From: Parvularculaceae bacterium
GTDB lineage: Bacteria > Pseudomonadota > Alphaproteobacteria > Caulobacterales > Parvularculaceae
Direction: 5' to 3'
Length of the DNA: 64,000 nt
Assembly: GCA_028280115.1 (NCBI GenBank)
Contig: JANQMJ010000014.1
Location: forward strand, 1 to 64,000
The position numbers and the translations under genes are program-made. The notes beneath the pieces were generated by a model that saw nothing but the letters and a program-made list of their open reading frames with translations, was not told where the DNA came from and did not search any database. This document shows positions 11,094-62,251 of this stretch, one piece after another; within the stretch, counting starts at the first letter, position 1; every line of letters begins with the position of its first letter.

Positions 11094-11233
11094 GCTTCGA
11101 GCGATGAAGGCGCATCGCGTCGATAGGACTTTATTAACCCTTTGTTTCGGCGGGCCGGGGCGTGACCGAGCGTAACGGCGGATTAACCACGATTTCCTAG
11201 ATTCTTCGGGCAATTTCACAAGTGGACGACGCG

Positions 11234-14200
11234 ATGCCCAAGCCTGGTTTCTCGTGGCGAAAAATCGTCCAAGCCACGGCTGACGAGACGCCGGACATCG
11301 TCGTCGACCGGCAGATGCGCGAATTGCGTCTGCAGCTGCCGCGCATTCTCCTCGGCATCGCCGTTTGCACTGCGTTCGTCGGCTATCATTTTTTCCAGAC
11401 GGCGCCGATTATCGTTGCGGCCGGCATGGGCGCGTATTTGATCTATGCCGCCGTGCGTATTTTCGGCTTGCGCCGACTGAATGTCGACGCCATGACGGCG
11501 CAGGAAAAACGCCGCCACGTCAACACCGTCATGACGACGGCGATCGGTCTGGGCGCGACCTGTTCTGTGTCTGCGATTTACTTTTCCGCTTACGCCGATT
11601 TCGGCGACTATGTTCTATTAACGCTTTGGACGGCGTTTTGCGGGATCGGCGCCGCCAACGCCTTTGCCTGCGTTCCGCGCGTTGCGATGATGATGCTCGG
11701 TCTTTGCATCGTTCCATTCTGCGCCGTGCTGGCGTCGACCGGTCAGGAGCCGTTGATCATGATCGGCGGCATCATGCTCTGCGCGGCGACCGTCAGCGCG
11801 GTTCAGCTCTCCCATCAGGGCAGACTCGTCGCCGAGCTTTGCCTGAACCAGCATCAGATGGAGACAGTGGCGCGCGACGCGCGCGACAATCTTCGCAACT
11901 TTATAGAAGCCGCGTCCGACTGGGCCTGGGAGCGCGACCCCCAAGGCCGGCTGACATATCTTTCAAAAAACTTTGAACACATCACCGGCGTGGACCCAAA
12001 GTCCATGCTCGGCATGATAGCGCTTCCTTTCGCCGAGCCTTTCCACAAGGGCCAGGAGCTTGACGAGGACATCGTCACGGCGATCGAACGCCGCGAACCG
12101 TTTCGCGATATAAGATACTGGCTGGAACTGGCGGGCGGCGCTCGCCGCGTCATGTCGACCAGCGGCCAGCCCAAATATAACGATCGCGGCGACTATATCG
12201 GCTTCGTCGGCTGGACAAGCGACATCACAAAAGAGGTCCAAGCCGAGCAGCGTCTTGTGGAAAGCAAGGAAAGGCATCGCGACTTCGCACAAGCCGGCGG
12301 CGATTGGAACTGGGAGATCGACGCGGATCTGCGCTATACTTATATCGCCGAGCATTCGCGCCACATCGCCGGCGTTGAGCTTCACCGACTGATCGGCGAG
12401 GAGATCGTTTTTTCCGGCGACGGCGTAAGCGAAGAACAATGGCGCAGGTTTCGCGAAACCGTCGAAGCGCGAAAGCCTTTTACCGATTTCGTTTCCACTT
12501 TCGAACAGCCCGACGGAAAGACGATTTGGATTTCACGCAGCGCTGTTCCGTTTTTCGACGCGGACGGCGCCTTCAAGGGGTATCGCGGCGTCGTCAAGGA
12601 TGTTACCGCGCGCATCGCGGCGCAGAACGAAGCCGCCGAGGCGCGGCGCGCGCTTACGGAAAGCGAACAGCGCTACCGCGACTTCGCCGAGAGCGCCGGC
12701 GACTGGGTGTGGGAAGTCGACAGCAATCTGATATACGTTCATATTTCAGAACGCGCCGACAAAGTGACCGGCTACGACCATGCGAAGATCATCGGCAAAC
12801 GCATGTCGTTCAGCGGCGAGGGGCCGATCGAGAATGAATGGCGCGCGCTCAGGCGGACCGTGGATGCGCGCAAGCCCTTTGCCCGGTTTATCGACCGGGT
12901 TCGCCGGGACGACGGATCAGCCATCTGGATCGAACGCAGCGGCAAGCCGGTTTTCGGGAAAAACGGCGCGTTCCAGGGCTATCGCGGCGTCGCGCGCGAC
13001 GTCACGGCGCGCATCGAGGCGCGGCGCGAGGCGGACGAGGCGTGGCGCGCCCTTGCCGACCAGAACGCGCATCTTGAAAAAATCGTCCGCCAGCGGACCA
13101 GGGACATTGAAAGCCAGACAAACCTTCTGAGTGAAGTCCTCGAGTCCATGGCGCAGGGAGTCGTGGTTCTCGACGACGACCGCAAAATCGTCGAGTGCAA
13201 TGAAAAAGCCTGGCGGATGTCCGGCCTGCCGGGCAAATACTGGGCGTTGGGCGCCGATATCACAGATGTTCTCGAAGTCGGCATGCAGCACAATGTCTAT
13301 GAATTCGCTTCCGTAGAGGAATATTTCGACGCTTGCGAAGAAACGCTGGAGAACGGGCGCGTGTTTCGGGCGGTCCGGCGGCAGAAGGACGGCCGCATCG
13401 TCGAAGAAAACATCCAGCCGCGGCCGAGCGGCGGCGTTGTCGTCACCTACAGCGATATCACCGAAACCCAGCAACGCGAGGACGAGCTGCGCGCGCTGAC
13501 CGAAGAACTCGTCGACTCGCGCGATGCGGCCCAAGCCGCCAATCGTGCGAAATCGGAGTTTCTGGCCAATATGAGCCACGAAATCCGAACCCCCATGAAC
13601 GGCGTCATCGGCATGGCTTCGCTGCTGCTCGACACCAGACTGACGCGAAAACAAAAGGACATGGCGCAGATTATCGTCCGCTCCGGCGATGCGCTGCTGA
13701 CCATTATCAACGACATTTTAGATCTGTCCCGGCTTGAAGCCGGCAAGCTGCGGCTCGCCTGCGAACCCTTCAACCTGCGCTCGGCGATTGAAGACGTGGC
13801 GAGCCTGTTGACGCTGCGCGTCGAAGAAAAGGGCCTGGAGCTGATGGTGCGTTATCAGCCCGATCTCGGCGAGCATTTCGTCGGCGATCCGGGCCGCCTG
13901 CGCCAGATCGTCACCAACCTGCTTGGCAACGCCGTCAAATTCACCGAAGCCGGCCATGTTCTGATCAATGTCAGCGGCCGACATCGCGGTGAAATCGCCC
14001 ATATCGAAATATCGGTGACCGATACGGGCTGCGGCGTTTCCGAAAACGATCTGCAGAGAATTTTCGAGAACTTCGAACAGGCGGACGCATCCGCCAATCG
14101 CCGCCATGACGGCGCCGGCCTGGGACTGGCGATTTCCAGCCGCATGGTTGAGGCGATGGGCGGGCTCATGTCGGTCAAAAGCACGCTGGGCGAAGGGTCG

Positions 14201-15124
14201 ACATTCGCGTTTCGCCTGCCGCTCACCATCGACGAGACGGCGCACGAGACCGCGCTGCCGGAGCCGGGCCTCTTCGCGAACCTGCGCGCGCTGATCGTCG
14301 ACGACAACGCCGTCAACCGAACGATCCTGAGCGAACAGCTTGCCTCCTGGGGACTGCAATCGGACGCCGCAGCCGACGCCCAATCAGCGCTCGCCGCGCT
14401 GAAAGCGCGGGATTACGCGGTTGCTATTTTAGATTTTCAGATGCCGCAAGCCGACGGCGTCACGCTCGCGCGCCGCATCAAGGAAGATCCCGCGCTCGCC
14501 GCAACGCCGCTCATCCTGCTCACATCGGCCGGGCGCAAGGGCGACCCCGCTGGCCTGGCGGGCGATCTCTTCTCCGCCTATCTCGTCAAGCCGGCGCGCG
14601 GTTCCCTGTTGCTCGACTCGATCATGTCCGCATTCAAGGACGGCGCCGTCAACGCCTTGCGCAGCGTCGCCGCACGCGCCGAGCCGATGGGTCAAATCGA
14701 GCATCGCACGCCGGCCGCGGACGGGTTTGCGCTTGACGTGCTGGTCGCGGAAGACAATGTGGTCAATCAGATGGTGGTGCGGGCGATGCTGGAAAAGCTG
14801 GGTTGCCGCGTAACCATCGCCGCCAACGGCGCAGAGGCGATCAAGGCGCATGACGCCCGCGACTTCGACGTTATCCTGATGGATATTTCCATGCCGGAAA
14901 TAGACGGCGCCGAGGCAACGCAGCGCATCCGCGCGATGGAGGAAAAGGCCGGCGCGCATACCCCCATCATCGGCGTCACCGCGCACGCCATGCACGAAGA
15001 CCGTCAGCGCTGCCTTGACCTCGGCATGGACGACTACCTGCCCAAACCCGTCAAGCAGGATGCGCTCGCCGCCACGCTTGCAAAATGGACGGTCGGCGCC
15101 GGCAAGACAGTCGCGGCGCAATAG
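11234..15124 (+). CDS. Hybrid histidine kinase with tandem PAS and two receiver domains
   Basis: A very large membrane-bound hybrid kinase (about 1296 aa from this ATG; an in-frame GTG lies at 11222). The N-terminus has several membrane helices (about 40-210). Three closely similar PAS units follow, each opening with a variant of RDFAESAGDWVWEVD, then a fourth, divergent PAS unit (LLSEVLESMAQGVVVLDD). The HisKA phosphoacceptor is H782 in MSHEIRTPMN. HATPase boxes (NLLGNAVKFTEAG, DTGCGVS, GAGLGLAI) precede two receiver domains with phospho-Asp about 1067 (LDFQMP) and 1217 (MDISMP). No output domain; it probably feeds an Hpt protein elsewhere. Convergent with the ABC exporter. Confidence 0.92.
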   Translation: MPKPGFSWRKIVQATADETPDIVVDRQMRELRLQLPRILLGIAVCTAFVGYHFFQTAPIIVAAGMGAYLIYAAVRIFGLRRLNVDAMTAQEKRRHVNTVMTTAIGLGATCSVSAIYFSAYADFGDYVLLTLWTAFCGIGAANAFACVPRVAMMMLGLCIVPFCAVLASTGQEPLIMIGGIMLCAATVSAVQLSHQGRLVAELCLNQHQMETVARDARDNLRNFIEAASDWAWERDPQGRLTYLSKNFEHITGVDPKSMLGMIALPFAEPFHKGQELDEDIVTAIERREPFRDIRYWLELAGGARRVMSTSGQPKYNDRGDYIGFVGWTSDITKEVQAEQRLVESKERHRDFAQAGGDWNWEIDADLRYTYIAEHSRHIAGVELHRLIGEEIVFSGDGVSEEQWRRFRETVEARKPFTDFVSTFEQPDGKTIWISRSAVPFFDADGAFKGYRGVVKDVTARIAAQNEAAEARRALTESEQRYRDFAESAGDWVWEVDSNLIYVHISERADKVTGYDHAKIIGKRMSFSGEGPIENEWRALRRTVDARKPFARFIDRVRRDDGSAIWIERSGKPVFGKNGAFQGYRGVARDVTARIEARREADEAWRALADQNAHLEKIVRQRTRDIESQTNLLSEVLESMAQGVVVLDDDRKIVECNEKAWRMSGLPGKYWALGADITDVLEVGMQHNVYEFASVEEYFDACEETLENGRVFRAVRRQKDGRIVEENIQPRPSGGVVVTYSDITETQQREDELRALTEELVDSRDAAQAANRAKSEFLANMSHEIRTPMNGVIGMASLLLDTRLTRKQKDMAQIIVRSGDALLTIINDILDLSRLEAGKLRLACEPFNLRSAIEDVASLLTLRVEEKGLELMVRYQPDLGEHFVGDPGRLRQIVTNLLGNAVKFTEAGHVLINVSGRHRGEIAHIEISVTDTGCGVSENDLQRIFENFEQADASANRRHDGAGLGLAISSRMVEAMGGLMSVKSTLGEGSTFAFRLPLTIDETAHETALPEPGLFANLRALIVDDNAVNRTILSEQLASWGLQSDAAADAQSALAALKARDYAVAILDFQMPQADGVTLARRIKEDPALAATPLILLTSAGRKGDPAGLAGDLFSAYLVKPARGSLLLDSIMSAFKDGAVNALRSVAARAEPMGQIEHRTPAADGFALDVLVAEDNVVNQMVVRAMLEKLGCRVTIAANGAEAIKAHDARDFDVILMDISMPEIDGAEATQRIRAMEEKAGAHTPIIGVTAHAMHEDRQRCLDLGMDDYLPKPVKQDALAATLAKWTVGAGKTVAAQ

Positions 15125-59812: not shown

Positions 59813-59848
59813 TACGTCGTTGACATATGTACGTCATTGACGTATATA
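59813..59848 (+). promoter_or_regulatory. Toxin–antitoxin promoter with two tandem dyads
   Basis: TTGACA (59820-59825) and TATATA (59843-59848) are separated by exactly 17 bases, a near-ideal sigma-70 promoter. Two copies of a 15-base dyad overlap it: TACGTCGTTGACATA (59813-59827) and TACGTCATTGACGTA (59830-59844), with starts 17 bases apart. The second is a near-perfect palindrome. They are the natural binding sites of the HTH antitoxin or toxin–antitoxin complex. Transcription would begin about at 59854, which is the toxin ATG. Confidence 0.78.
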
Positions 59849-59853
59849 ACGCC

Positions 59854-60207
59854 ATGGCCCGGCATCATACGGTCGTTGAAACGGAAGAATTCACCGCCGA
59901 CGCCAGGCATCTGAAAGTTCCGGAATCGGAGGTGACGCGCATTATCACGGAAATATCGCTGAACCCTGCTGGCGGCAATGTGATCAAGCAATCAGGCGGG
60001 TTGCGCAAGGTGCGCATAGCCGGACGGGGCGGCGGCAAAAGCGGCGGGTATCGCGTGCTGACGCTTTATTTGAATGAGGATTGTCCGACTTATCTTTTCG
60101 CGATGTTAAGCAAGGGCGAACGAGCGAACTTCTCAAAGGCCGAACTTTCCGAGCTCAGAAAGATCGCGACAGAGATTAAACGGCGCTGGAAGGAGCGTAA
60201 GAAATGA
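59854..60207 (+). CDS. RelE/HigB-type toxin
   Basis: A 117-aa toxin of the RelE superfamily, probably a ribosome-dependent mRNA interferase. ETEEFTADARHLKV, GGLRKVRIAGRGGGKSGGYRVLTLYL and FAMLSKGERANFSKAELSELRKIA match the HigB/RelE subgroup found with NadS/HigA antitoxins. ATG 59854 (MARHHTVVE) is chosen because an in-frame ATG at 59827 lies inside the promoter. Stop and antitoxin start overlap by four bases. Toxin first, as in higBA. Confidence 0.85.
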   Translation: MARHHTVVETEEFTADARHLKVPESEVTRIITEISLNPAGGNVIKQSGGLRKVRIAGRGGGKSGGYRVLTLYLNEDCPTYLFAMLSKGERANFSKAELSELRKIATEIKRRWKERKK

Positions 60208-60515
60208 GCCGTAAACCTTTAGGCGAGCGCGTCATGAACGCTGCGCGTCAGGCGCGCGATCATGCGCGCGGGAAAAAAGCATTGAAGGAACACCTGCCGG
60301 TAATACCCGATGAAATCGACGTCGCAGCGATCCGAGCGAAAGCACAATTGTCTCAAGCCAAATTCGCGCAGCGTATCGGCGTGTCTGCGGCGACGCTGAA
60401 AAACTGGGAGCAGGGCCATCGCAAACCGAGCGGTCCTTCCCTGGTCCTGCTCGCCTTGCTCAGGGAAAATCCGCGCATTGTCGAAGAGACGCTAACGCCT
60501 GAAACGGCGGGGTAA
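60204..60515 (+). CDS. HTH antitoxin (HigA/NadS-like)
   Basis: A 103-aa DNA-binding antitoxin. The helix-turn-helix is AAIRAKAQLSQAKFAQRIG, VSAATLKNWEQGHRKPSGPS, the Xre/HigA pattern; the basic N-terminal arm (RVMNAARQARDHARGKKALKEH) probably wraps the toxin. Overlap with the toxin gene by four bases couples their translation. It is the expected ligand of the tandem dyads upstream. Confidence 0.87.
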   Translation: MSRKPLGERVMNAARQARDHARGKKALKEHLPVIPDEIDVAAIRAKAQLSQAKFAQRIGVSAATLKNWEQGHRKPSGPSLVLLALLRENPRIVEETLTPETAG

Positions 60516-60545: not shown

Positions 60546-62087
60546 TTAAAGATCCCGCGCGACGCGCAGACCGGTATCGAAATCGCGCTCTGTTTGGCCG
60601 GCGGATTTGCGATGGCTCGACCGAATGCGCCAGGCGCCCGCATTCCAGGCCCCGCCCTTCAGGACGCGATCCGAACAGGCCCCGCCCACCGCAGAGCCGT
60701 CGGTCGGCGCGCCGGCATGGTCCGGCCGCCAGCAATCCTGGGTCCATTCCCAGACATTGCCGTGCACGTCATGAAGGCCAAATCCGTTGGCGGCGAAACT
60801 GCCGACGTCGACGGTCCTGGAGCGAAACCGTTCGGCCGGAAGGTTTTTATAGGGATACTGAGCATTGAAATTCGCCTGGGCGACGCGAATTTCATCGCCG
60901 ACGCTGAACGGCGTCTGCGTGCCGGCGCGCGCCGCATATTCCCATTCCGCTTCGCTCGGCAGACGATATTGAACGCTGGTTTTTTCAGACAGCCAGGCCA
61001 CATAAGCCCGGGCGTCATTGTAGGAGATATTGACGACCGGCCGGCGGCCCTTGCCCCAGCCCATGTCGGGCGGTTCATAGTCGGCGCATCCGCCGTCGGC
61101 GAGACAGGCCGCCCATTCGTCATAGGTCACTTCGTAAACGCCGATCGCAAATGGTCTTGCGATCGTCACATCGACTTGCGGCGTTTCTGACTCGTCTCGG
61201 CTGAATTCGTCATCCGGCGCGCCCATGGAAAATGTCTGGCCGCCCGGGGCGACCACCATTTCCGGACACGCCTCGCAATCGCGGAAGACTTCTCCCGCCT
61301 GTCGGACCGCGGGCGCTTCTACGATTTCATCGGCAGGTTCGACTGCATCCGCCGCGGCGCTATCAGGATCGGCAGCATCCTCTTGCGGCGCGCTCGGCTC
61401 CAGGGCTGCGAGCGATTCTATTTCATCTTCCAACGCCGCCTCGTCATCGCCGGACTTTGCGGCGTCATCTTGAGCGGCGATGAGCGGCTTGTCGCCGGCG
61501 CCCGGGCCCATGAAAAACCAATAGCCCGCCCCGGCGCCGGCCAGCAGCAAGACGGCGATAACGACCAACACCGCCGGGAAGCCGCCGCCGGATTTTTCCG
61601 CCGCCGGGCTCGCCCCAGCCGCACCGGCCGCGGATCGGCGCGGTGATGGTTTTTCGCGCGATTCCGCCTGGCGTTCGGCGGCGGCCGCGGCAGCACGCGA
61701 GGCCACAAGCTTGCGCACTTGCGTACTGATCATCTGCCAGTTCGGATCGCGCGTATCACCCTGCCAGCCGCGCAGGTCGGCGGTCTGCAGGCGTTTAAAG
61801 CCCCGCGGCAGATCGACCTCGTCGATCACCATCGGGATCAGCGCATTGCGCTGCATGCCGTCATCGGCCTCCTCCTGCACCCAGTTCGAATGAACAGAGG
61901 ACTGCGACCAAACGGCGATAATGCACTTGGCGGTCTTGAGCTGCTTGTCGATGACCTGGGAAAACGATTCGCCCGGGGGAATGTCCGGGTCCCACCAGAC
62001 GTCCAGGCCCTCGCGCTGGAGCGCCTCGGCGATAAGACGGACGCGGTCGCGATCATCGCGCGAATAGCTGATGAATATATCGGTCAT
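60546..62087 (-). CDS. TIR–transmembrane–SUMF1 protein
   Basis: A 513-aa three-part protein. Residues 1-130 are a TIR domain (MTDIFISYSRDDRD, VWWDPDIPPGESF, SNWVQEEAD); E73 occupies the catalytic Glu position of TIR NADases. After a basic linker, one membrane helix spans about 170-193 (PAVLVVIAVLLLAGAGAGYW). An acidic linker leads to a formylglycine-enzyme-like (SUMF1) domain from about 275 (MVVAPGGQTFSMGAPDDEF, YEVTYDEWAACLADGGC, RLPSEAEWEYAARAG, NVWEWTQDCW). The catalytic Cys pair is replaced by GGAWNAGAWRIRSSHR, so it is likely a binding domain in the periplasm. TIR would be cytoplasmic. Convergent with the toxin–antitoxin pair. Confidence 0.88.
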   Translation of the reverse strand: MTDIFISYSRDDRDRVRLIAEALQREGLDVWWDPDIPPGESFSQVIDKQLKTAKCIIAVWSQSSVHSNWVQEEADDGMQRNALIPMVIDEVDLPRGFKRLQTADLRGWQGDTRDPNWQMISTQVRKLVASRAAAAAAERQAESREKPSPRRSAAGAAGASPAAEKSGGGFPAVLVVIAVLLLAGAGAGYWFFMGPGAGDKPLIAAQDDAAKSGDDEAALEDEIESLAALEPSAPQEDAADPDSAAADAVEPADEIVEAPAVRQAGEVFRDCEACPEMVVAPGGQTFSMGAPDDEFSRDESETPQVDVTIARPFAIGVYEVTYDEWAACLADGGCADYEPPDMGWGKGRRPVVNISYNDARAYVAWLSEKTSVQYRLPSEAEWEYAARAGTQTPFSVGDEIRVAQANFNAQYPYKNLPAERFRSRTVDVGSFAANGFGLHDVHGNVWEWTQDCWRPDHAGAPTDGSAVGGACSDRVLKGGAWNAGAWRIRSSHRKSAGQTERDFDTGLRVARDL

Positions 62088-62251
62088 GACCCCTTGCCCC
62101 TGTTTTCGGGCGGTTTTTTAGACCGGATTTGCTTAAAACGCCAACGCTGCCGCGCCGCCGAAGCCGCCCCCAGGGGCTGTGCGCCGTTGAGCCGGCCCGG
62201 CCGACTCCTATATGAAGAAGCATTCCCGCCCGCTGCAATGATCGATTTCGC

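Follow-up and report, generated by a model that had tools for sequence, protein, structure and literature searches.

The window (the whole 64,000-nucleotide stretch analysed here) encodes a 513-residue protein that begins with a TIR_2 domain, continues with a single membrane helix and ends with a domain of the formylglycine-generating enzyme (FGE) fold, an order referred to below as TIR-TM-FGE. We propose, with confidence that stands about evenly between acceptance and doubt, that this protein is a receptor in the membrane, serving as an outside-in alarm, in which a lectin-fold domain on the outside clusters or gates a TIR NADase. The parts are known; the novelty lies in how they are combined with a PvdO-like domain on the outside, and in the existence of both live and dead versions of the TIR domain. 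Text searches, mainly of the freely accessible literature, found no paper on a receptor composed of a TIR domain, a helix and an outer FGE domain. Coordinates are collected in Table 1.

Table 1. Features of the TIR-TM-FGE gene, its surroundings and the related operon. Positions refer to the window unless another locus is named.
Feature	Position	Strand	Basis
TIR-TM-FGE receptor-like gene, 513 aa	60546..62087	-	ORF; Pfam; full-length orthologues 59-65% identical
Ribosome-binding-like AAGGGG	62090..62095	-	sequence
TIR_2 domain, residues 1-125, predicted cytoplasmic NADase	61713..62087	-	Pfam; AbTIR/PdTIR matches; pLDDT
D33 codon (AbTIR D167)	61989..61991	-	18/18 canonical, 0/21 pseudo
E73 codon, predicted catalytic Glu (AbTIR E208)	61869..61871	-	alignment; canonical/pseudo contrast
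Basic linker, predicted cytoplasmic, residues 126-169	61581..61712	-	8 K/R, 4 D/E; partly low pLDDT
Transmembrane helix, residues 170-193	61509..61580	-	hydropathy peak 2.39; model helix 172-193
Acidic disordered linker, predicted extracytoplasmic, residues 194-262	61302..61508	-	20 D/E, 3 K/R; mostly low pLDDT
PvdO-like FGE/C-type-lectin-fold domain, residues 263-513, six conserved Cys	60549..61301	-	Pfam; PvdO 5hha match
RelE-family toxin with HTH antitoxin, convergent to the TIR-FGE gene	59827-60515	+	
rpmB-Suv3 gap, flexible cargo slot	between 59676 and 62252		
Two-gene operon: SLOG-DUF4231 (SLATT-like) membrane protein, then pseudo-TIR-TM-FGE	L137 7458-11240 (same genome, contig C24)		

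The open reading frame begins with ATG behind a ribosome-binding-like sequence, and alignments with the orthologues begin at the same methionine. Pfam places TIR_2 at residues 4-110 (E 1.6e-26) and FGE-sulfatase at residues 274-511 (E 7.2e-52); both pass the cut-off by a wide margin. The AlphaFold2 model, built from a 74-sequence alignment, contains two confident domains at residues 1-145 (pLDDT mostly >90) and 261-513 (94-99 per block), with a helix at 172-193 and linkers that are disordered or of low confidence. The sequence-only reading had joined a TIR domain, a membrane helix and an FGE-like domain in a single polypeptide, and Pfam, structure prediction and hydropathy confirm this.

Residues 170-193 are the sole hydrophobic segment of the protein and include no charged residue. 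The 44 residues N-terminal to the helix contain eight K/R and four D/E, and the 69 residues C-terminal to it three K/R and 20 D/E, such that the charge bias on which a topology had earlier been based is borne out, with a basic inner and a strongly acidic outer flank. The cysteines are also unevenly distributed. C55 is the only one before the helix and six follow it (271, 274, 328, 334, 452 and 471), all of them invariant across nine canonical and 13 pseudo relatives (the latter with an altered TIR site, see below) and recurring in nearly all relatives. This is the pattern expected of extracytoplasmic disulphides, in which the six residues would presumably pair. The placement of the cysteines (six in the outer domain, a single one in the TIR domain), the charge distribution and the single helix together support the predicted topology with the TIR domain inside and the FGE-like domain outside. 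Conservation is concentrated at the two ends: pairwise identity reaches 71% in the TIR domain and 63% in the outer one, compared with 23-40% across the linkers and helix, which argues that both ends are under constraint. The acidic linker (residues 194-262) has mostly low pLDDT and 23% identity among orthologues, and linker length, 81 residues in the 513-residue protein, ranges from 33 to 210 in relatives with little conservation.

In phmmer searches the TIR domain matches AbTIR and the PdTIR structure 3h16, and E73 occupies the alignment position of the catalytic glutamate in both. The glutamate is thus kept, as had been noted from the letters, and the wider AbTIR site is also present: S140, R151, D167, W204, E208 and R215, whose mutation lowers NADase activity (PMC11374754), align with S7, R17, D33, W69, E73 and R80. 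All 18 canonical TIR-FGE proteins, which come from different genera, have D33 and E73; S7 and W69 are almost always kept, and R17 and R80 are variable. Pseudo-TIR paralogues share the same outer domain and retain the fold residues W60 and A74, but D33, W69 and E73 are all lost in 21 of 21. As evidence for catalysis in the canonical branch, this contrast between the canonical and pseudo branches outweighs E73 taken alone. That paralogues with the same outer domain are kept in the genus without an NADase site fits an alternative in which the TIR domain is a scaffold or adaptor, not an enzyme, and passes a signal to another TIR or membrane protein; we consider this improbable, as only the pseudo branch has lost the active-site residues, which do not vary among the canonical proteins. 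That pattern suggests instead that an enzymatic role has probably been selected in the canonical proteins, and the intact site predicts that the TIR domain of the 513-residue protein is an NADase. It shares the TIR_2 fold and NADase-site residues with AbTIR and PdTIR, but differs from them in its N-terminal position ahead of a helix and an FGE domain on the outside.

The C-terminal domain had been described as a SUMF1-like domain whose catalytic cysteines are missing. The second part stands, as no cysteine occupies the positions aligned with the active-site pair of FGE/SUMF1; the first does not, because by sequence and structure the closest relative is PvdO rather than SUMF1. The fold is that of the formylglycine-generating enzymes by both Pfam and Foldseek, but the nearest solved structure is PvdO, ahead of those enzymes themselves (phmmer E 4.1e-50; Foldseek to 5hha, E 1.2e-27, TMt 0.84, 41% identity), and a DCxxCPEMVV motif is common to the two in the alignment. 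PvdO also ranks first in NCBIfam, at a score of 207.6 that lies far below the cut-off of 500, such that the domain is PvdO-like and not established as PvdO. The Pseudomonas protein, which acts in dihydropyoverdine oxidation, is likewise periplasmic but is free, with neither TIR domain nor helix. It is required for the last pyoverdine oxidation in the periplasm, although the purified protein is inactive and contains no detectable cofactor (PMC6206403). PvdO too lacks the FGE cysteine pair in the alignment, and with PvdO as the closest relative the missing pair is no proof that the outer domain is a dead enzyme or only a sensor.

Because PvdO is needed for an oxidation, the outer domain could itself be an enzyme, which counts against the receptor reading. 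It would then be an active periplasmic oxidase of the PvdO type with a metabolic job, and the TIR domain would regulate or report on its substrate. The kinship with PvdO, the highly conserved C-terminal motif GGAW..G.WR and the vertical inheritance of the gene (below) are all consistent with this, but we regard it as unlikely: the family score is under cut-off, the glutamate of the PvdO DWGEPP motif aligns with a non-glutamate residue, and no pyoverdine gene is present among the annotated neighbours. Moreover, this type of FGE domain is joined to quite different partners; among 53 proteins with a long N-terminal part these are caspase (11), TIR_2 (five), protein kinase (four) and nucleotide cyclase (three) domains. 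That the domain is swappable among such partners favours sensing, as the receptor reading has it.

Of 299 genomes of the order, 246 contain matches to the TIR-FGE protein, for the most part through the FGE half. Seven genomes of the genus and two of a sister genus encode a full-length canonical TIR-TM-FGE protein, and other TIR-FGE fusions occur in Nitrosomonas, in Filomicrobium and in further families of the order; the suggestion that the architecture may occur elsewhere has therefore proved correct. In a quick tree of FGE domains the canonical and pseudo proteins constitute one clade (99) within which the nine canonical ones are nested as a clade (99), and the remaining TIR-FGE fusions are placed elsewhere, among caspase fusions and other proteins. 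From this tree the fusion is likely to have arisen repeatedly, although the starred branches force only two changes. Within the Parvularculaceae the TIR-TM-FGE family is vertically inherited. On phages and plasmids the matches listed involve the FGE half only, with no full-length copy among them, and we therefore reject the idea of a mobile defence gene. The genome also encodes two further TIR_2 proteins (L138, contig C19 53263-53577; L139, contig C11 38116-38445), in which one helix and then TPR repeats follow, the same layout with a different outer part.

The window genome and three relatives carry the gene between rpmB and a Suv3-like helicase gene, and its other neighbours are hemB and the RelE-HTH pair. 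The same pair (toxin identity 81-83%) stands alone in the rpmB-Suv3 gap of two relatives; elsewhere in the genus the gap is empty in six genomes and contains a hybrid histidine kinase in most others. Different regulatory and addiction genes occupy this gap, which is a flexible slot. A typical defence island is rejected: the content of the slot varies, and the neighbours are rpmB, hemB and the helicase. The location outside any defence island, the PADLOC results, which consist only of partial matches to the TIR parts of its models, and the failure to find a full-length phage or plasmid copy all speak against the receptor reading. We note that the window also encodes a hybrid histidine kinase of 1300 residues with several PAS and two receiver domains (11222-15124, + strand). 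TrkA_N-RyR proteins are encoded at L125 5451-7979 and L126 4792-7257, one with a weak SLOG match; as a partner of TIR-FGE this RyR-TrkA-SLOG type was rejected, being a convergent neighbour in two species of one (sister) genus only and not general.

A further possible relationship involves the SLOG-DUF4231 operon, which lies on a different contig of the same genome. In each of the 16 genomes of the genus where a SLOG-DUF4231 gene is present, that gene adjoins a pseudo-TIR-FGE gene. The SLOG-DUF4231 product, of 626 residues, has an N-terminal fold matching YpsA, ShosA and DprA and a DUF4231 membrane region, with DUF4231 matches that are borderline and a model that is weak outside the SLOG part. 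In Thoeris, SLOG domains read cADPR made by TIR proteins; SLATT, for its part, has been predicted to act as a membrane effector regulated by ADPr (PMC9503650). The constant adjacency, the SLOG-type fold and these precedents lend themselves to an alternative in which the TIR domain is one arm of a Thoeris-like network, making an ADP-ribose-type signal that the SLOG-DUF4231 protein reads. We find this doubtful, as the window gene and the operon are on separate contigs, the assignment of the putative effector is borderline beyond its SLOG part, and a link between canonical TIR-FGE and the presence of SLOG-DUF4231 was rejected (6 of 7 versus 10 of 21, Fisher p 0.18, not significant and confounded by descent). 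The idea of a TIR signal enzyme is shared with Thoeris (ThsB TIR, ThsA SLOG), but the SLOG protein is here elsewhere in the genome beside a paralogue, the sensing domain differs, ThsB models match TIR-FGE weakly, and no ThsA (SIR2- or Macro-SLOG) gene is present beside the TIR-FGE gene among rpmB, the toxin-antitoxin pair and the helicase. The operon is a lead on receptor signalling and not proof for the window gene. A speculative extension, to which we give little credence, is a periplasm-sensing TIR branch, in which TIR-TM-FGE would detect an outside threat through its PvdO-like lectin-fold domain and make an ADP-ribose signal, to be read by the SLOG-DUF4231 effector with the dead TIR-FGE protein as co-receptor.

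The receptor that we propose would be a single-pass membrane protein with its N terminus inside and its outer PvdO-like domain on a long, flexible, acidic periplasmic linker. Binding of a ligand, or crowding, would bring cytoplasmic TIR domains together; the assembled domains would cleave or cyclise NAD+; and the product, or the loss of NAD+, would alter or halt the cell, perhaps in protection or a stress response. Since the linkers vary so greatly in length and are little conserved, a rigid push through the helix is unlikely, and clustering is favoured over a conformational switch. Plant TIR domains become active through induced proximity alone (PMC7414095). FGS/FGE domains that are coupled to TIR and caspase effectors have been proposed to sense invaders (PMC8195603), and a similar role in conflict systems has been proposed for FGE-fold domains (PMC10907252). 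According to a title cited in PMC9612521, FGE-like proteins have been reported as T6SS immunity proteins, and an effector injected into the periplasm may thus be one candidate ligand.

Two known groups of systems invite comparison. STAND-FGS conflict systems (PMC8195603) also combine an FGE-fold sensor with a TIR or caspase effector, but are regarded as intracellular and are built around a central NTPase, whereas TIR-TM-FGE has one helix and an outer FGE domain, and no Pfam match to a central NTPase domain was found in it. The variable proteins of diversity-generating retroelements (DGRs; TvpA 2y3c; PMC10907252) have the same FGE/C-type-lectin fold by Foldseek, and some DGR loci with such proteins include TIR (PMC10907252). 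However, the genome has no PF00078 match to a reverse transcriptase, and the C-terminal region at residues 480-513 is conserved (61-78% identity) and not hypervariable; a DGR target is rejected on both counts.

To our knowledge, the known bacterial TIR systems are treated as intracellular sensors. If the receptor reading is true, a TIR enzyme coupled across the membrane to a lectin-fold domain outside would match the Toll-like receptors in layout, as their counterpart in bacteria, and could act ahead of entry by an invader or an injected effector. The presence of live and dead TIR versions within one genus would then provide a context in which the role of catalysis is open to direct testing.
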